NCBI GenBank assembly: GCA_964036665.1
Contig: OZ038533.1
Coordinates: 15,409,075-15,473,074, forward strand
Direction of reading: 5' to 3'
Source of the DNA: Gordius sp. MW1
Taxonomy: Eukaryota; Nematomorpha; Gordioida; Gordea; Gordiidae
DNA: 64,000 nucleotides
The position numbers and the translations under genes were made by a program. The notes beneath the pieces were generated by a model. That model did not search any database and was not told where the DNA came from. It worked only from the letters and a program-made list of their open reading frames with translations. Positions 764-27,121 of the stretch are shown in pieces; the first letter of the stretch is position 1; each line of letters starts with the position of its first letter.

Positions 764-1554
764 TGTGAGCAGGCAGGTTCCTAATCTGGAAGAAAAGCGC
801 GTGAATATATAAAAATAACCTTATTTCATATCGATGAATAAGTTTAGTTTAAAATGCACTTCAATATACGGAGCGCCATCATTGACAAATATCATGTTTT
901 TGTTTTATTTTAAAAGCACGCATCCACAAATATTACCAACGCTTAGAATGTGATTAGAAAATTAACTATGGCAAACTGATGAGCTCTAATAAGAGCGAAA
1001 ACTTTATATCTCTGTTATTAATTTCGAGTCACATGCTAAAGAGATGGGGATATATAACGTCAAATTAGTCTCTAATTAAAATGGCCTATGGATGGCGCTA
1101 ACTAGAGTAAACTCTTAAGTTAATTGCCTTTCCTAAAATGTGTTTTTTTAAAAAATTTATAATACTTTTTTATTATAATCCTATTACGCGGGGCATACTT
1201 AGCATGCTTTCCCAATGATCCCCCCGTTTTTAAAACGTCGAGTAAGGTCGTTCTGCTCCGTAACATGGTGGGACCAGGGGAAGTAGACCCGGAAGACGGA
1301 AACTAGGGAAGAATGTAGCAAGTACGGCGAGGTAATACCAAAGATATTGCAAAGTCTTGAATTAAACATTATTTTAAGCACGGGCGGTAGTATGACTAGT
1401 TAGTTTTACTGAAAAATTCATTTTTATTCGATATTGCTTAAATGGATGGACTACCACAATATCAGTCGATACGAGCTTTGCTCAATAATTTGGTCAGATT
1501 TTTATAGCTAAAATCTCTAAATTCAAAAATAGAGTTTAGCCAAGTTTAATGATA
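764..1554. other. No gene recognised
   Basis: AT-rich DNA. A GC-richer patch at about 1190-1385 has a 60-codon open frame on the minus strand, but it resembles no protein I know and shows no splice context, so I do not call it a gene. Confidence 0.6.
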
Positions 1555-1712
1555 GAGGGGACCAGGGGGGGGACAGGTAGGGGCGGCTGCCCCCCTTAAA
1601 TCCAAAAATTCATATAGTTATAGCTACTATTTTAATAAATTATCATTTTGTGTCTCCTTAAATCAATAGTACCTCCCTCTAATTCCAACCCTGGCTACGC
1701 CCCTGGAGGGGA
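1555..1712. mobile_element. GC-rich MITE copy (G-run/TACGCCC family)
   Basis: A member of a dispersed family with runs of G near one end, runs of C near the other, an AT-rich middle and the end motif GGCTACGCCC. Better copies are at 27697-27879, 30874-31035 and 59066-59218, where 8-bp target duplications can be seen. This copy has lost its left end motif. Confidence 0.6.
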
Positions 1713-1784
1713 CTTAAATTATGGTAATGGTTCAAAGAAAAAGGAATGATGACTTTTAAAAGCTTAATATTAAAAAATAATTTG

Positions 1785-2061
1785 TGTAACGAAGTGGCCG
1801 GGGGTATTGTACTAAACCATACACTAAATCGACAGAAAGGCACAGAGAGACTCTTTTATTAAATAAACACGGCTTTTTATAGATAACTGCGAGTAATAAT
1901 TATAAAGAAGGACATACATAATCAAATAAGAGATACCAAGTACGGTGTAAACTAAGGTGTATTCAAATGGCTACGATTATAATCAAATGTCTGTGACCGC
2001 GCTCAAGTATAGTAAAAACGCGTGTATTCAAAAAGGCTACCTTGAATACTACTCCATTACA
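1785..2061 (-). repeat. 3' LTR of the gypsy element
   Basis: 277 bp with ends TGTAA...TTACA. On the minus strand it contains a TATA-like CTATAAAAAG and, just after it, AATAAA, which suit promoter and poly(A) signals. 1905-2061 match 8116-8272. Confidence 0.9.
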
Positions 2062-2077
2062 CTACTCCACCCTTTAA
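2062..2077 (-). promoter_or_regulatory. Polypurine tract
   Basis: On the minus strand a purine-rich run (TTAAAGGGTGGAGTAG) abuts the LTR start TGTAATGG. This is the expected place for priming of plus-strand DNA synthesis. Confidence 0.75.
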
Positions 2078-5000
2078 GCGAAACCTTGAGGGTATCTGAC
2101 AGTTGGAACCGATACTCTTTTGTATGGAAGTATGTTGTCTTCTGAAATCGCTGCTGGATCTGGTCGTTTGACTACTCTCATATGGTCGGCGTGTTTTACT
2201 TGAGTTTTGTCACCCAATTGTACGTCATAGGTCAGGTAACTATTTTTCGTAAGGACTTGACCTTCTCTCCAACCTGGAGATCTGTCATTTTGTACCCAAA
2301 CTTTTTGATTTGGAGCAAAATCACGGTATTCCAGGCCCCGGTTCCTGTAATACTTTTGTTTCCAAACGGAATCACTGATTTTCTCCTTCCGTGTCCATTT
2401 TAATTGGTCAAGAGTTGTTCGAAGTCTTCTATTGAACATACCTTCCCCCGGACTAATACCAGTGGTAGTATTTACCGTCGTTCGCATATTAAATAAAACT
2501 TGTAATAAATTTTCACGATCGTTTAGGCCTTGTCTCCTTCCCGCAAAAAATTTGTTCTTTATGGTCCTTATATATCTTTCTGCTAGGCCGTTCGTTCTAG
2601 GGTGGTACGGTGCGCCCCGAAAATGTCGAATTCCATTTCTTTTGCAGAAAGTTGTAAATTCATCTGATGTGAATTGAGGACCATTGTCACTTACTATATA
2701 ACGGGGAAGCCCAAATCTGCAAAATAAAACTCGTAGATTATAAATAATGTTAGATGTGTTGATTTGTTTTATAACCATAACTTCAGGCCATTTAGTGAGG
2801 GCATCAATGCAAACCAGCCAATAATTATTTGATATTGGCCCCGCCAAATCAATGTGAATCCTTTCCCATGGTTTGTTGGGAATATTCCAGCTGGACATTG
2901 GTACTTCTTTCGTTAAAGGCCTACCTTCTTGGCAATTATTGCAACCATTTACAAATTGTTCTATATCCTTGTCCATGTTGGTCCAAAATACATAGTATCT
3001 CCCTGAAGATTTCATCGCTCCAATCCCAGGGTGCCCATTATGTAGTATATTTAAAACCTGTGACTTTAAACCAGAAGGAATAATAATTCTATTATTGAAA
3101 TATAGTAGGTTATCTTCAAATGATATAAAATTCTTTAAATCAGAATATTTTTTAACTTTATCGTTAGAACTATCTCCTTGCCAATTATTTTGAAATAATT
3201 TAATAACTTCTTTTAAAATATCGTCTTTTAAAGTTTCGTTAATCAAAGTTTTTCTATTAATTGTTAAGTCATCAATTAGATTTAATTTAATTATTTTATC
3301 TTCAAGTTCCTCTTCTGGATCATAATAATTTGAAACTGGAATTAACCTTGATAAAGCGTCGGCACATTTATTTGATGATCCCGGCATATATTTAATATCA
3401 AAATTATAGTGCATAAGTTTTGTAGCCCATCTGACTAAGCGATTATTTGTTACTTTACTCAAATCCCTATTAGGACCAAAAATTCTTTCCAAGGGGCGGT
3501 GGTCTGTAATTAATGTAAATTTCCTACCGTAAATGTATTCGTGAAATTTTTGTATAGCAAACATGATTGCAGCAGCTTCTCGGTCAATAACCAAATAATT
3601 ACGCTCAGCTGGACTAAGTGTCCTAGATGCGAAAGCAATCGGTCTTTCATGTCCGTTAAAAAATTTATGTGAAATAACAGCTCCTAAACCTGTTTCGGAA
3701 GCGTCGCATGAAATTATAATAGGTATATTATTTTGATATGGAATTATTGTTTTATCTGTTGAGATTAAGTTTTTTATATTGTTAAATGCCTGTTTTTCTG
3801 TTATAGTCCAATTCCATTTGACTTTAGTAGATGTTAATTTATACAAAACTGAACTTTTAGATTGCAAATTTGGAATAAAACTTCCAAGATAGTTAACTAG
3901 ACCAAGGAATGATTTTAATTCTTTGCGATTAGTTGGTTCTTTAAATTTTTTAATTGCCTCCACCTTATCTCCACTAGGGTGAATGCCATTTGCATCTATC
4001 GTATGGCCCAAAAATTTAACAGATTTTTTGAACAATTGTAATTTGTTTAGGGACGTTGTTAATCCGGCATTTTTAATTAAATTTAGTGTTTCTAGTAAAT
4101 TTTTATTATGATCTTCCTTGTTTTTTCCACTTATTATAATATCATCCATAAAAACACTTACGCCTTTTAAGCCTTTGAGCAAATTTCTCATATAACGGTG
4201 AAAAATTATTGGCGCTGTTGTTAAACCGAAAGGAAGCCTTAAATATTGAAAATACCCTATATGTGTGGCTATGTTTAACAATTTTGAACTTTCCTCCGAA
4301 ACTTGTAATTGCAAAAATGCATCTTTTAAGTCAATAATCGAAAATATTTTACCACCCGATATTTCATTCGCGACGTCCTTGAACGTTGGAAGAAGATCGT
4401 TATCCTTTGATAGATACTTATTTAACGTCACTCTGAAGTCACCACATATACGGACGTCACCGGATTTCTTCCTGATGTTAACCGTAGGTGTTGCCCATTT
4501 GATTGGAGTTGTGGTTGGATCGATTTTTCGAATAACCCCTTCACTTTCTAAACGTTTCAATTCTCTTTCGATAGCTTGACGCATTGGAAATGGTACCCGT
4601 CTCGCCATGTAGCTTATGGGACATGCTGTTTTTTCTACTTCAATCACGACTTTAAGGTCTTTAACTTTACCCAATTTTTGACTAAAAACTGTTGGAAACT
4701 GTTTAAAAATATCGTCTTCCCTTAAATATTTTTCTTTATCGGAAATAACATTTAATTTAATGATTGGTGGAAGTGATAATTTGTATTTAATAATGTGAGG
4801 GATACCGAAAATCAAATTTCCTTTACCTTTAATAACATGTACATCTATGACATGTGATTCATTGTTAACTTCTACCTTGGCACTGCATTTCCCCAAAGTT
4901 TGAATTTTGGTTTTGCCATAACCATATATCTCCGAACCCGGTATTAGTGGTGGCTTTCCTATGCTACGCCACGTTGGTTCATCAATAACTGTGCAAGCGG

Positions 5001-17028: not shown

Positions 17029-18027
17029 CATACATACATACATACATACATACATACATACATACATACATACATACATACATACATACATACATACATA
17101 CATACATACATACATACATACATACATACATACATACATACATACATACATACATACATACATACATACATACATACATACATACATACATACATACATA
17201 CATACATACATACATACATACATACATACATACATACATACATACATACATACATACATACATACATACATACATACATACATACATACATACATACATA
17301 CATACATACATACATACATACATACATACATACATACATACATACATACATACATACATACATACATACATACATACATACATACATACATACATACATA
17401 CATACATACATACATACATACATACATACATACATACATACATACATACATACATACATACATACATACATACATACATACATACATACATACATACATA
17501 CATACATACATACATACATACATACATACATACATACATACATACATACATACATACATACATACATACATACATACATACATACATACATACATACATA
17601 CATACATACATACATACATACATACATACATACATACATACATACATACATACATACATACATACATACATACATACATACATACATACATACATACATA
17701 CATACATACATACATACATACATACATACATACATACATACATACATACATACATACATACATACATACATACATACATACATACATACATACATACATA
17801 CATACATACATACATACATACATACATACATACATACATACATACATACATACATACATACATACATACATACATACATACATACATACATACATACATA
17901 CATACATACATACATACATACATACATACATACATACATACATACATACATACATACATACATACATACATACATACATACATACATACATACATACATA
18001 CATACATACATACATACATACATACAT
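17029..18027. repeat. (CATA)n microsatellite, about 1 kb
   Basis: An uninterrupted run of the tetranucleotide CATA (TATG on the other strand) of about 999 bp, some 250 units, with no visible substitution. All frames across it are open, giving spurious repetitive ORFs on both strands. Confidence 0.98.
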
Positions 18028-20424: not shown

Positions 20425-22008
20425 ATGATGTTGAAATTATGCATAGAAGGTCAAATGATTAATGTGGTGTCCTGATATGCTCCGCAAACAATATGCACAG
20501 ATGAAGAAAAAGAGGGCTTTCGGGAAGAATAAGACGAAACGCTGCACATGATACCCAGAGCCGAGATATTTATAATTGGAGCGGATATGAATGGTCACGT
20601 AGGCAAAACAAGAAAAGGATTTGAACGGTACCATGGTGGAAATGGATACGGGGCGAGAAACGATAAAGACGACGAATATTGAAAATACCCGTAGCATTTA
20701 ATTTGGCTATCATGAATACCTTTTTCAAAAAGAATGTAATAACGTTCAAAAAAGGGAATCGGTCTTTGCAGATTGACTTCCTCTTAATATCAAGAAAGAA
20801 TTAAAGAATGTACGCGATTGTAAGGTTATACCAGGTGAGGCTATTGCAGCCAAGCATAGACTTGTTGTGATGGATTATACCATCTCCAAGGCGAAAACAC
20901 AAAAGTCGAAAAGATTCAATGGGAACATTAAATGGTTCCGGCTACTAAAATTGAAAGATATTTACAATGATCAAATAATTGAACGGCTGAAAATAGATGA
21001 TCAGCAGAATGCTAACGATATGTGGAATAACATAGCTAACACGTTAAGATCAGTAGCGAGATGTGTTCTCAGAGGTAAATCAGGTGTACAAAAGGATAAG
21101 GAGACATGGTGATGGAACGAAGACGTGCAACGCCTAATCAAGTTGAAAAGAAGGCTTTACAAATTATGGTCAGACAACAGAAGTGAAAAAACATGATTGG
21201 CATGTGTGAAAGCTAAAAATGAGGCAAAACGTTGTGTAGCTAAGGCTAAAACAGAGATCTACGAGAATTTGAATGCCAAGTTAACTAGTAAAGAAGGGGA
21301 AAGAATGATCCACAAAATCGCAAATACCAGGGCAAGGGACTCAAAAAATGTAGTAAACGAGAAAACCATAAATAGCAAGTAGGGCATCACTATAAATCTG
21401 GACCATTAAATCATACATCGTTGGGAAGAATACTATAAAGAATTATTAAACAGTGAAAATGGGTTTTCGAACCACTGCTAACGCAAGAACTATGAATATG
21501 ACCCAGAGTTAGAAGTGACAGAAGAAGAGGTTGACCAGGTGCTTAAAAAGATGACCATGGGTAGAGCGGTGGGACCTGATAATATAACTAGGGAAGGTTT
21601 CAAAATGCTAAGACCCTTAGGTGTACATTTACTTGCAAAGCTGTGTAACAAAATACTTGCACGTGGTATGATGCCTGATGAGTGGAGGGAAAGCTATGTT
21701 ATACCAATTTATAAAATGAAGGGAGATGTAATCACGTAATGAAGGTGTGGGAAAGGTTATTTAAGCTAGACTCCAAAAAATAATCTCAATAGATTAACGA
21801 CAATTCGGGTTCATGCCTGGAAAGTCAAATTCAGATGCAATACATGTTTTTAGGCGACTTTTGGAATTATATAAGAAAAAACAAAAGGATCTTTATATGT
21901 GTTTTTGAGGAAGCTTGATAAAGTGCCAAAACAGTTGATATGGGATAGCCTGAGTTCCAATGGTGTACCCGACGCCATAAAAACGTAAAAACCAAAGTTC
22001 AGACATCC

Positions 22009-22414
22009 TAATAAATCCTCGTAATAATAGTATTTATTGATTTGTGATTATGATTTGTTATTATGAATCTAAACTACCGAATACTCTAATTTATTTCGAC
22101 TGAAAAATCCGCGATAAAATATATACGCTTTAAAACATCCGCGATACATTTTTCTGGTTATAATATTCACTAAAAATGCAAAGAATAATAATTAATGGTG
22201 AGGTAATATATTAATACGCGATAAGATGGTAATAATATAAACGATCTATTTATATCGTAAAGATATTAACAATCATGACTCATCAGTTAGCCTAACTACG
22301 CGTAAAGTAAAATTGATCGTATGGTGAATGAATATAATTTGTGGATAACAACCGGGAGGAGTACAAGGGGTAATAATAAAAAAACGTTAATAAGAGAAAG
22401 GGTGGAACACCACA
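22009..22414 (-). repeat. 3' LTR of the small LTR element
   Basis: Forward ends TAATAAATCC and GAACACCACA; on the minus strand it starts TGTGGTG. The same sequence recurs at 23247-23656. Confidence 0.88.
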
Positions 22415-23246: not shown

Positions 23247-23656
23247 TAATAAATCCTCGTAAAAATGGTATTTATTGATTTAAATTATGATTTTGTTATT
23301 ATGAATCTAAACTACCGAATACTCTCTTTTATTTATGCGACTGAAAAATCAGCGATAAAATATATACGCCATTTTTCTGGTTATAATATTTACTAAAAAT
23401 AAAAAGAATCGATAAGATGGTAATAAAATAAACGATCTATTTATAAAGTAGAGATATAACAATCTATTTATATCGTAGAGATATTAACAATCTATTTATA
23501 TAGTAGAGATATTAACAATCATGACTTATCAGTCATCAAAAAAAATTTATCGTATGGGAATGAATATAATTTGTGGATAACAACCGGGAGGAGTACAAGG
23601 GGTAATAATAAAAAAAACGTTAAATAAAATTATAAGAGAAAGGGTGGAACACCACA
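23247..23656 (-). repeat. 5' LTR of the small LTR element
   Basis: Matches 22009-22414. It contains a local triplication of ATCTATTTATA...GTAGAGATATTAACA at about 23425-23520 that the other LTR lacks. Confidence 0.88.
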
Positions 23657-24773
23657 CATCCAGTGGTACATCAAAGAGATTCAGTCTAAAGGTCGGTGAG
23701 CATCAAGGATCGGCACTAAGTCCATTGCTCTTCATAACAATAACGGATTCGATAACGAAGGACCTGACGCGAATCACCTTGGGCAATGCTCTTTGCGGAT
23801 GATATAGTGCGCAGCCTCAAATGTGGAATTAGCAGAGCAGTTAAAAGTGTGGATGGACCAAATTAAAAGCTAGGCCTTAAGGTCAAGCGAGATTGAATAT
23901 GTATGATTGGAATTGGGTAATGAATACAAAGAAACACATCTGCAAATCAATGACTGGTGTTTAAGCAGTTGGAAGGAATTCAAATATCTTGGTTCTAGGG
24001 TACAATGTGATGGGGGTGTGAAAAACGAAATCAAGGCAAGAATAAACGCAAGCTGGCTATAGTTCAGGGAGTTGAGTGGTTTCCTATTTGACAAACACAT
24101 ACCACTTAAATTGAAAGTACGGTTATATAACACCGTTATTGTACCCACGGTATTGTATGGAGCGGGACCAAAGCCATTAAGGCAAAAGAAGAGCAAAGCT
24201 TGGCCACAATGGAGATGCGAATGTTAAGATGGATTTTGGGAATAAGCTAAAATATGAGGAATCAAGACTAAAGGGATAAATAAATATGGTTCCGATTTAG
24301 AGAAAGTTGGTGGTAAGAAGATTGAGATGGTATGGCCATTTGGAGAGACGGGAGGAAAGTCACCTGGCAAATCGTATCAAGAAAGTGCAAGTCGTAGGTA
24401 AGCGAAAGAGAGGGAGGGATAAACTAACATGGAAACACAAAATAGATATGGATTTGAGAAGGTACGAGCTAAAGCGAAGCTGGTGTAAGTGCAGGTATAC
24501 ATGCAGAACCTACTTGAAGGAGCTAACCACTAAGTGTGACAAAGTAGGAAAGAAAATATATAATTTAGTCAAATATTGGTTAACTTATAAATTTCTAAGT
24601 ATATTTATATTTGACTGAAGCAGTGATTTTGATACAAATGTTATAATTTGCTAGAACTATCAAATTTAATAAGGTCTTTAATCTAACAATCAGTATATTT
24701 ATTACATAGAAGTTTCTCTAAAACACTCACGAGTACTAGTTTCGACTCAAATCTAAAAAGTGTCAATACACAC

Positions 24774-24927
24774 TGATACAATTGAGAAACTAATTTATTT
24801 GATAGTAAGTTATACATGATACAATTGGAAAAACAACATGGCGAAATGGAAGTCAAAACTAAAAATGCGAAACGATTCATTGTCTCGTTTGGGAATTGAT
24901 ATTAATACAATATTCAAATAAATAACA
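24774..24927 (-). repeat. 3' LTR of the kinesin-carrying element
   Basis: 154 bp, forward TGATACA...AATAACA, matching 26948-27121 apart from substitutions and an indel of about 20 bp near 24905. Confidence 0.85.
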
Positions 24928-24930
24928 TAT

Positions 24931-24948
24931 ATCCTCCCTTTCTTTTTG
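24931..24948 (-). promoter_or_regulatory. Polypurine tract of the kinesin-carrying element
   Basis: On the minus strand CCAAAAAGAAAGGGAGGA lies directly before the 3' LTR. Confidence 0.7.
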
Positions 24949-24952
24949 GCTT

Positions 24953-25200
24953 TTAATTATATTTTCTCGATAAGTATTGAAGGTGGGTTAGGCTTAACTG
25001 ACGGTTATACACTTGCACCAGCTCTTGTGTATCTACGAACCTCTTCCTTAGTTGGTCGACATGCTTCCGCAATAGCCTTCCATCCGCTTCCATCGAGTAG
25101 GACAACGGCTCCGTTCTTGTTGCCATGAAACCCTCATGCCAACCTTGACTCGATTTCTTTCTCACCCATTTCGGTTGCTCGGGAAGAATACTCCTGCCAT
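24953..25200 (-). pseudogene. Retrotransposon integrase C-terminal tail
   Basis: An open stretch ending at 24953, next to the polypurine tract. It reads PKWVRKKSSQGWHEG, then EPLSYSMEADGRLLRKHVDQ, the typical end of gypsy integrases where a chromatin- or DNA-binding tail of the form W..G.I....PLSY.V...G...RRHVDQLR closes pol. Its presence directly downstream of kinesin sequence shows that the middle of pol was replaced, not just lost at the 3' side. Confidence 0.75.
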
Positions 25201-25221
25201 TAATTACTTGTCATGCGCCAC

Positions 25222-25790
25222 GCTATCGACATTGGCAGCAGATTTATGCCAAATCCCGTACTCTAACCCAGAAACGACAGTATCGGTAGGGCCATCACCA
25301 CCCTTGCAATTTTCTTGCCTATCTTTGGCCACTTTTAATATCGGCCTGGCTTCTTCGTTGGTGGCTTCATGCCTTTTGTCGTGGGCCCTTGCATTTATTT
25401 GCTTGTACCATGTCTCGTCTTTCTTGTAGTTGCCCGGTTTCCCATATAAAACGGCCAGATTGTTGAGTGTGGAAAGTATTTCGTAACCCGAATTCAAGAT
25501 GGAACCCGACCCTTTGCTGCTTCCCCGTATATACTAGTTCCGCTATTAGGACCGTCTGAGTCTGCCTGGTTATCTTCGAACCCGAGATCTCTGAGCGTTA
25601 GGTTTGATGCCCTATGGTCGGTGTTGATGGCAGAAATGTCTTCATCGTATTTCTTAATATTCGGCATGTATTCCAAGTGTTTGTCTATTTCTTCCAACGC
25701 AGCCACGTTTCGTTCGCTAGCCATCAGCTTTTGTTGAGTCTTAGCCAACTCGTCTCGTAGCCAAGCATTTTCTTGACACGCAATCGAGGT
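25222..25790 (-). pseudogene. Klc: Captured kinesin light chain segment
   Basis: Kinesin light chain is the cargo-binding TPR subunit of kinesin-1. The segment starts with the end of the heavy-chain-binding coiled coil (CQENAWLRDELAKTQQKL, then KHLEYM and KKYDEDIS), close to the family's CQENQWLRDELANTQQKL...KHLEFM...KKYDDDIS. A frameshift near 25495 follows the acidic linker. It then reads GYEI and TLNNLAVLYGK (start of a central TPR), fused to the end of the last-but-one TPR (YKQINARAH) and the family's conserved IW-V-A-R-E linker, ending at GIWHKSAANVDS (family GGWHKAAKVDS). Most TPRs are missing; the join falls at the repeated NNLA motif. No introns are present. The flanking sequence on both sides is retroelement. 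Confidence 0.85.
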
Positions 25791-26155
25791 TTGATTGTTT
25801 AAACTACTTACATTATGAACTTCTACCATTGGGGGAAGTGGCAGATTTAAAGCTAAGCTCCATGGGAAACCAAAAAGTGGTACCTCCTTACCCTTGCTAA
25901 CCACCACTGTTAAAAACGCTTGCCCACTTGAACTTTCACCGTTGATTCACCCAATATCTCTAGAAATGTACAACCGTATACTAGAGGTGGTATGGCCTTT
26001 CTAAGTATGGGCTGGCCGATTTCTTTCCATAACGATGCATTAATTACAGACACCTGCGCCCCAGTGTCAAAATCCAACACTGTCCAGCGATCGTTGATTT
26101 TCACCCTAATCGTGGCCCGATGCCCTCGACGATTAATCTGGCATATTGAATCCAT
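25791..26155 (-). pseudogene. Retropepsin and start of the pol linker
   Basis: 25910-26155 encodes an aspartic protease core with VLDFDTGAQVSVIN (catalytic DTG) and a flap-like GESTVKVQVG. A stop at 25910 sits next to a +1 continuation (LTVVVSKGKEVPLFGFPW, then ALNLPLP) that matches the protease-RT junction of gypsy elements. Retroelement similarity fades at about 25795, where the kinesin sequence starts. Confidence 0.8.
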
Positions 26156-26181
26156 AGAACCGGCATCATTATCTTCTCCGG

Positions 26182-26928
26182 TTATATATGCTTACTGTAC
26201 CTTAAAATCGTCTTTACAACACCGACGTAATGTTCCCTCCTATTCCACTTTCTACAATACGCCATGAAGGCAGGACACTGATTTGGACAATGATTCCTGT
26301 CGCAACGTTGGCATTTAAAAATCTTGTCGGATTTAAAAAACCTGTCGCCTTGCGTCCTCGATATCTTTTGAACCATAGGAATATTTTCCTGAGTCTCCTT
26401 CTCATCTCTTTCTATTGTTAGTGCCATGTCTAGCACCTTCTAATGTGAGAGGACTTCCGTCCTTTTCCTCACAATTGGAAAATTTTGTCCGAATTCGAGT
26501 TCCAACCGTTGAATATCTACTCCAAAAATCAGCTGATCCCAAATACATGCCTCTATGTCTACCTTAATGTTGCAATTGTGGACTATGGAATTTATTTTTC
26601 TATAAAAATCTAAAACCGATTCACCTGAGCCTCTTTTCGATCGCATCAGTTCCATTCTCGCCGCAAATGCCGAAGTTGTCTTTTTAAATACCTTATGCAA
26701 AGTCGATACGATTTCTTCCCATATGGCATCTTTAAAAAGTTTTGGGTATAAAAACTGAGACAGTTTTCTTAAATTAGCCGTGCCTAAAAATGCTCTAATT
26801 AGCTTTTTCCTTGCCACATTGGATGATAGTCCTATAATATCCAGGCGAGCGTCCACGTAATCTAAATAGTCTTCGATATTCTGGTTGCAGGAATCAAATT
26901 CCTTAGAATAATCCAATTTAAAAGTCAT
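26182..26928 (-). pseudogene. Retrotransposon gag with zinc knuckle
   Basis: 26440-26928 is the gag matrix/capsid part, starting at the ATG 20 nt after the LTR end (MTFKLDYSKEF). It contains the capsid-like FYRKINSIVHNCNI and IFGV steps shared with the gypsy gag at 6663-8072. A frame change near 26438 leads to 26182-26436, with a CQRCDRNHCPNQCP zinc-knuckle remnant. Confidence 0.8.
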
Positions 26929-26934
26929 AGCAGA

Positions 26935-26946
26935 CTCGCAGCGCCA
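26935..26946 (-). promoter_or_regulatory. Primer binding site of the kinesin-carrying element
   Basis: On the minus strand TGGCGCTGCGAG lies 1 nt after the LTR end TGTATCA. Starting with TGG, it fits pairing with a tRNA CCA end. Which tRNA is not clear. Confidence 0.6.
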
Positions 26947-26947
26947 A

Positions 26948-27121
26948 TGATACAATTGAGAAACTAATTTATTTGATAGTAAGTTATATATGATACATGA
27001 AAAACAACATGGCGAAATGGAAGTCAAAACTAAAAATGCGAAACGATTTATTGTCTCGTTTGGGAATGATATTAAAATATTAAACTATATAACATAAAAT
27101 ATAATATTCAAATACATAACA
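26948..27121 (-). repeat. 5' LTR of the kinesin-carrying element
   Basis: 174 bp, forward TGATACA...CATAACA (TG...CA ends on the coding strand), paired with 24774-24927. Confidence 0.85.

Follow-up and report, generated by a model that had tools for sequence, protein, structure and literature searches.

A hairworm Ty3/gypsy-type retrotransposon with a spliced kinesin light chain segment in place of pol

Anatomy of the element

We analyzed a 64,000-nt stretch of DNA (hereafter the window) from the hairworm Gordius sp. MW1. Its minus strand between positions 24774 and 27121 carries, in this order, a long terminal repeat (LTR), gag with a zinc knuckle, a protease (PR) region, an intronless segment of kinesin light chain (KLC), the C-terminal part of integrase (IN), a polypurine tract and a second LTR (Table 1). 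We classified it as a decayed, non-autonomous Ty3/gypsy-type element. Reverse transcriptase (RT) and the integrase core are absent from the copies that carry KLC, which occupies their place, and thus the element is a non-autonomous derivative.

Table 1. Features of the KLC-bearing element, with positions in the window
Feature	Position	Strand	Basis or remark
5' LTR (TGTTAT...GTATCA), 174 nt	26948..27121	-	pairs with 24774-24927; ends set by eye
Putative primer binding site, beginning TTGGCGCTGCG	26930..26947	-	directly after the LTR
gag, closed by an in-frame stop in the window copy	26440..26928	-	ORF; weak Pfam match, Retrotrans_gag/PNMA
Remaining gag with degenerate zinc knuckle (CQRC...CPNQC...YC, by eye)	26190..26439	-	ORF in the same frame as gag
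Aspartic protease region (FDTGAQVSVI), frameshifted	25780..26189	-	Pfam and alignment to copies
Derived PR-KLC junction	25779..25780	-	lacks about 114 nt of the RT N-terminus that older copies have
KLC segment of spliced exons, from part of E1 to E8, less two internal stretches	25223..25779	-	alignment to host exons; limits approximate
First deletion inside KLC, 261 nt net (87 codons)	25472..25476	-	host 458 joined to 723, with 3 nt between
Second deletion inside KLC, between homologous TPR repeats	25414..25441	-	host 781 joined to 1006, 28-nt overlap
KLC-integrase junction, end of host exon E8	25222..25223	-	alignments and junction probe
Integrase C-terminal part	24953..25222	-	aligned to integrase-bearing relatives; ORF 24953-25210
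Polypurine tract AAAGAAAGGGAGGATATA	24928..24945	-	nearly unchanged in other copies
3' LTR, 154 nt	24774..24927	-	pairs with the 5' LTR; ends set by eye

The paired LTRs expected from the first-pass annotation are present, with 91.2% identity in a local alignment. They have TG...CA ends, whereas two related copies (L011 and L021) end in ...AATA instead. The 5-mers flanking the element, GTGTT and GTGTG, agree in four of five bases. The putative primer site begins with TTGG just after the LTR, and its first bases also follow the 5' LTR in three other copies (L002, L011, L021); a bacterial-code tRNA scan of the window found no tRNA. The LTR type is common to the window copy and L002, and at most about 50 nt of it align to the LTRs of L003-L008, a mismatch that suggests LTR exchange.

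The same annotation had placed gag, zinc knuckle and protease on one side of KLC, and an integrase tail and polypurine tract on the other. All these pieces are in place, but Pfam supports gag and protease only weakly and the reading frames of the window copy are disrupted: it has the in-frame gag stop at 26440, frame changes in PR and KLC, and a stop that opens the integrase tail. The gag match (Retrotrans_gag, E 0.018) and both protease matches (PF13975, E 3e-4; PF13650, E 4e-4) are below the curated cutoffs. The zinc knuckle is degenerate, while its position and its conservation among copies (70-94% identity for the gag remainder that includes it) are consistent with a Ty3/gypsy gag. Pfam gave no match for the integrase tail alone, which was assigned by its alignment with the integrase end of relatives, including one (L057) with an rve_3 match that is likewise below cutoff (E 4.5e-4). 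The KLC identity of the central segment is beyond doubt, as a 109-aa piece encoded by positions 25204-25533 matches human KLC1 (3nf1_A) with an E-value of 4.7e-22.

Several other features lie at lower window coordinates than the element. Positions 17029-18027 (999 nt) are filled by some 250 CATA tetranucleotide units without a mismatch (100% match), in keeping with the strong GC skew there. Four families of direct repeats link 22054-22384 with 23292-23616, the copies being about 1,190-1,250 nt apart; they represent either a duplicated stretch or another small terminal-repeat element. These repeats are flanked by broken pieces that by eye resemble non-LTR reverse transcriptase (20777-21739 and 24301-24618).

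Dispersed copies, donor gene and relatives

The genome assembly (211.8 Mb, 12 contigs) was searched with probes from the KLC part, gag and the tail, and element pieces were mapped on the fetched loci; the counts for junction, RT and gag probes given below are lower bounds. The gag and knuckle probe had 42 matches. One order of parts is common to all eight copies of the window subfamily (L002 without gag), and older copies keep it with gaps or insertions. Both element ends were readable in four copies. Two of these have perfect 5-bp target duplications (CTAAC in L002, CGCAT in L021), the window copy has the four-of-five match described above, and the copy at C2:17157 has none; their LTR pairs are 95.5, 95.5, 91.2 and 93.9% identical, respectively, in local alignments. 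The dispersed copies, two of them with their own perfect duplications, show that the element moved again together with KLC.

The host KLC gene was identified at C2:1481500-1491400 (locus L055), separate from the window. It bears introns, and we delimited nine exons from the coiled coil onward: eight are preceded by AG and followed by GT, while the ninth (E9) is preceded by AG and has an arbitrary cut as its end. The spliced frame is open, and in a midpoint-rooted tree of 17 KLC proteins, 16 of them chosen among 120 listed, the host protein groups with that of Gordionus (Nematomorpha) with support of 100/100. The element copies match the spliced form of this gene: they align to it exon after exon with introns missing at the exon joints, eight separate exons being matched, at 79-84% identity (14 rows). 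Since the copies span host exon joints without introns, the source was an mRNA, and uptake of KLC as genomic DNA is ruled out.

The intronless KLC segment reported for the window is thus real, but it is not the full captured piece, having lost the two internal stretches listed in Table 1. The mapped copies jointly cover parts of every exon from E1 to E8 except about 41 nt of E3; therefore the captured piece, of about 1,157 nt, was probably contiguous at capture and was trimmed afterwards. The first deletion is common to the window subfamily and to L019/L036, L022, L024/L045, L027/L041, L040 and L042, and the second is common to the window subfamily. A copy on C6 (L036) has a deletion of nearly the same span as the second one with different ends (host 800 to 1022). 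Such later deletions took most of the TPR repeats. The simplest reading is that a single ancestral capture probably took place and that KLC has shrunk since.

Several loci required separate interpretation. Insertions inside KLC in L041, L046-L048 and L022+L039 were rejected as introns: they lie within exons, at host positions of about 1150, 829 and 875 (exon joints are at 817, 901, 991, 1091 and 1230), and duplicate 7-8 nt of KLC at their borders, and on both counts they resemble ordinary transposon insertions. The KLC matches at C8:4.50-4.55 Mb were considered as the host gene and dismissed, because they carry element joints and are old, broken element pieces. This cluster (L049-L052, C8:4504-4552 kb) has 5' and 3' halves kilobases apart, one of them inverted; the halves overlap in KLC content (host ~440-571 in both) and retain TPR1 and more of the captured KLC. 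At C1:10099-10196 kb (L046-L048, L054) there are four near-identical repeats about 29-35 kb apart, in each of which a KLC-element piece adjoins an oppositely oriented gag-PR-RT piece. In L002, KLC reads through into the integrase tail as a single frame of 280 open codons (1252-2091, minus strand) although gag is deleted; given an LTR pair at 95.5% identity, this frame could be due to chance.

In copies that reach the 3' joint, KLC closes with ...GTCGATAG, where exon E8 ends ahead of its GT donor; integrase follows, and from there the copies align to the integrase end of relatives. In the host alignment, the KLC matches that reach the 3' end stop no more than 2 nt from the end of E8; in a separate exon alignment, two of nine matches extend 3 nt beyond it. 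A 101-nt probe across this joint had 25 matches in the genome, and the joint is spanned in 23 of them, on seven contigs (C1, C2, C3, C4, C6, C7, C8). These 23 include the four C1 repeats and three joints on C8 that lie in one cluster. The remaining two matches are the host KLC gene, for the KLC half only, and one place for the integrase side only.

The 5' joint exists in two forms. Older copies change from the RT N-terminus (...GCAACTCCTAGATCT) to KLC at AGGTTGTG, a point 72 nt into exon E1 (host position 2060 in the reverse complement of L055), and at this position RT continues in the pol-bearing copies. This ancestral joint is spanned in 8 of 19 probe matches. In the window subfamily, eight copies in all, a further in-frame deletion of about 114 nt begins just after PR and extends to the start of KLC. 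The resulting derived joint is spanned in 8 of 35 probe matches, the window included, and the others match one side only. The copies with shared junctions that the first-pass annotation called for were thus found on both sides of KLC.

The relatives with pol that it also anticipated do exist. In four loci (L012, L017, L018, L020), PR continues into RT, and their gag, knuckle and PR are 79-93% identical to the window copy. L018 has an RVT_1 match (E 2.1e-12) after PR, and L057, the integrase-bearing relative mentioned above, lies downstream on the same contig and was taken by position as part of the same element; together they give the pol order PR-RT-...-IN. BEL/Pao elements have the same pol order as the Ty3/gypsy order tested here. 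We set them aside on RT motifs and on the nearest informatively named proteins to the L018 RT piece, which are K02A2.6-like. An RT probe from L018 scored 40 places among 45 candidates, 30 of them (L018 included) at 94% identity or more, so that the RT-bearing family appears to have been active recently. Judging from these sequences, its members could supply enzymes in trans. In the gag tree, KLC copies are intermixed with pol-bearing copies, and the history of the family is thus partly recombinant.

Codon-position patterns in KLC and gag

We used the distribution of changes over first, second and third codon positions to compare KLC with gag. The KLC rows are 14 stretches of at least 23 copies, some of them partial; the gag rows are 18 stretches (7 from group A, 5 from group B, 5 pol-bearing, and L053, which was used in the alignment and tree only). 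Sites at which the element copies are uniform but unlike host KLC number 4/3/29, a pattern that a constrained host gene alone could produce. For shared and near-fixed changes among copies, with one exception allowed per group, the counts are 19/14/24 in KLC (p 0.16 versus equal) and 20/18/62 in gag (p 6e-9), and under this one counting rule the two differ (Fisher p 0.020). The result is similar for the 11 copies present in both alignments (14/13/20 in KLC versus 19/15/62 in gag, Fisher p 0.019). Changes confined to single copies number 90/82/75 in KLC and 53/56/73 in gag.

Because some KLC copies group with pol-bearing ones in the gag tree, exchange with autonomous copies may have contributed to the gag signal. 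The significant codon-position bias in gag, set against no significant bias in KLC, indicates that KLC is probably a passenger, though it may have been under weak constraint early on.

Origin of the element and known cases of gene capture

Altogether, we estimate at roughly 88% the probability that a Ty3/gypsy-type retrotransposon acquired, on one occasion, an mRNA-derived piece of the host KLC gene, from within E1 to the end of E8, which took the place of pol between early RT and a point close to the end of integrase. The missing target duplication at C2:17157, the imperfect one of the window copy and the mixed gag tree weigh against this reading. The first-pass annotation had proposed a retrotransposon with a transduced KLC cDNA, and the directly observed junction copies, spliced KLC and RT- and integrase-bearing relatives agree with this proposal.

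It had also named two ways in which the structure might mislead. One is an assembly chimera of the KLC gene and a retrotransposon, for which we found no support at all; it is ruled out by the 23 dispersed KLC-integrase joints on seven contigs, with the host gene separate on C2, and its probability is negligible. The other is an insertion of KLC in its own right, such as a processed pseudogene made by a LINE that landed in the element and spread with it. This would account for the missing introns. However, element coding sequence bounds KLC on both sides with about 2.3 kb of pol missing between (a distance estimated on a relative at C5:17185-17189 kb), so that KLC replaces rather than interrupts; in addition, KLC ends at a coding exon and continues into integrase without any 3' UTR or poly(A). 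We therefore rejected the processed pseudogene, which we regard as very improbable.

The joints themselves suggest how the capture may have proceeded. A random junction would fall within 1 nt of one of eight exon ends with a chance of only about 2%, and the position of the 3' joint at an exon end, together with that of the 5' joint inside an exon, suggests a spliced KLC-provirus transcript followed by template switching. In this scheme a provirus would have been located in sense orientation behind exon E8, and KLC transcription would have read into it, with E8 spliced to a cryptic acceptor in integrase. The resulting RNA could have been co-packaged with normal element RNA by virtue of its 3' LTR end. 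Minus-strand synthesis would then have copied integrase and after it KLC until, within E1, it changed template to the RT region of the normal RNA, giving a product that retained the LTRs, primer site, gag, PR and polypurine tract. This product would have spread on the RT and integrase of its pol-bearing relatives, and its KLC would have decayed afterwards as a passenger. Chimeric RNA, co-packaging and recombination are described as a general route of capture in one report (PMC4299795). The candidate acceptor has AG directly before the joint position in 14 of 16 integrase-bearing loci without KLC, and by eye a weak pyrimidine tract. Against the provirus step, no element sequence was found in the host KLC stretch (BLAST on L055, E up to 1), and the proposed provirus itself was not observed.

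A variant of the preferred capture would dispense with the provirus: both junctions would be non-homologous template switches between a normal KLC mRNA and element RNA, the exon-end position of the 3' joint being a coincidence. The 5' joint, lying within an exon, requires such a switch anyway, and the KLC and integrase sides share AG at the 3' joint, so a chance switch may have occurred there; the low chance of landing at an exon end counts against it. We consider this variant a real but less than even prospect. It is unlikely, in turn, that KLC is or once was of use to the element, say within a Gag-PR-KLC polyprotein attaching particles to kinesin. In the window copy, PR and KLC are read in a single frame (ORF 25494-25946), as are KLC and integrase in the 280 open codons of L002, the first KLC deletion and the loss of the RT N-terminus are both in frame, and KLC changes lean slightly to third positions. 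Yet this lean is not significant and differs from the gag pattern, and most TPR repeats are gone. Equally doubtful is a fuller version, in which KLC, in frame between protease and integrase at capture, worked for the element, perhaps by linking Gag particles or the polyprotein to kinesin-1 for transport, and decayed later, the 3' joint being the fossil of a spliced host-provirus transcript. If it were true, the element would have experimented with a motor adaptor in the role of a replication gene.

Capture of host genes by LTR elements has precedents in maize Bs1, oncogenic retroviruses and crocodilian endogenous retroviruses (ERVs); the first-pass annotation had pointed to acutely transforming retroviruses and a few plant elements in which host cDNA replaces pol or gag. 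Bs1 is a non-autonomous element. Acutely transforming retroviruses arise from chimeric host-provirus RNA and recombination during reverse transcription, lose viral genes and need a helper. The KLC element resembles them in its proposed chimeric RNA route, gene loss and need for a helper, but it has no oncogene, shows no env and belongs to a family of germline retrotransposons.

Like the KLC element, Bs1 is an LTR element carrying host gene segments, termed transductions (PMC13317346); it is a plant element with segments of three genes, whereas the KLC element is from an animal, carries one gene and has its RT-bearing parent family and ancestral joints still present. Crocodilian ERVs captured KIT-ligand or nectin3 mRNA and likewise occur in several copies, in one case with a viral domain replaced (PMC4299795). 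These are vertebrate retroviruses in which env or nothing was replaced, in contrast to pol here, and purifying selection was reported for their KIT-ligand, whereas KLC shows no significant constraint (PMC4299795). Bdelloid rotifer elements are also invertebrate LTR elements with acquired genes; however, their additional ORF3, shared among retroelements, is added to a retained gag and pol, while KLC substitutes for pol (PMC5408684). A retrotransposon of the worm Bursaphelenchus captured a nodavirus-like element, which is again foreign RNA-derived sequence, but of viral rather than host origin (PMC5177903).

Searches of the open-access literature showed no capture of KLC and no Ty3/gypsy element of an invertebrate in which host mRNA takes the place of pol, and those on nematomorph genomes showed nothing on the KLC element. 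A protein search for KLC-integrase fusions returned 64 candidates, none with E <= 0.001, in collections of a kind that often omits transposon proteins.

Host-gene capture by LTR elements is known, and the KLC case is well documented through its own copies. One assembly contains the donor gene, its captors' RT-bearing parent family, older copies that keep the ancestral joints and a shrunken subfamily, so that both joints, the succession of events and what became of the captured gene are directly readable. Few genome papers on hairworms came up in searches of the open-access literature. The 3' joint at an exon end informs how retroelements acquire genes, and it suggests that the capture route of oncogenic retroviruses is also possible in a hairworm Ty3/gypsy element.
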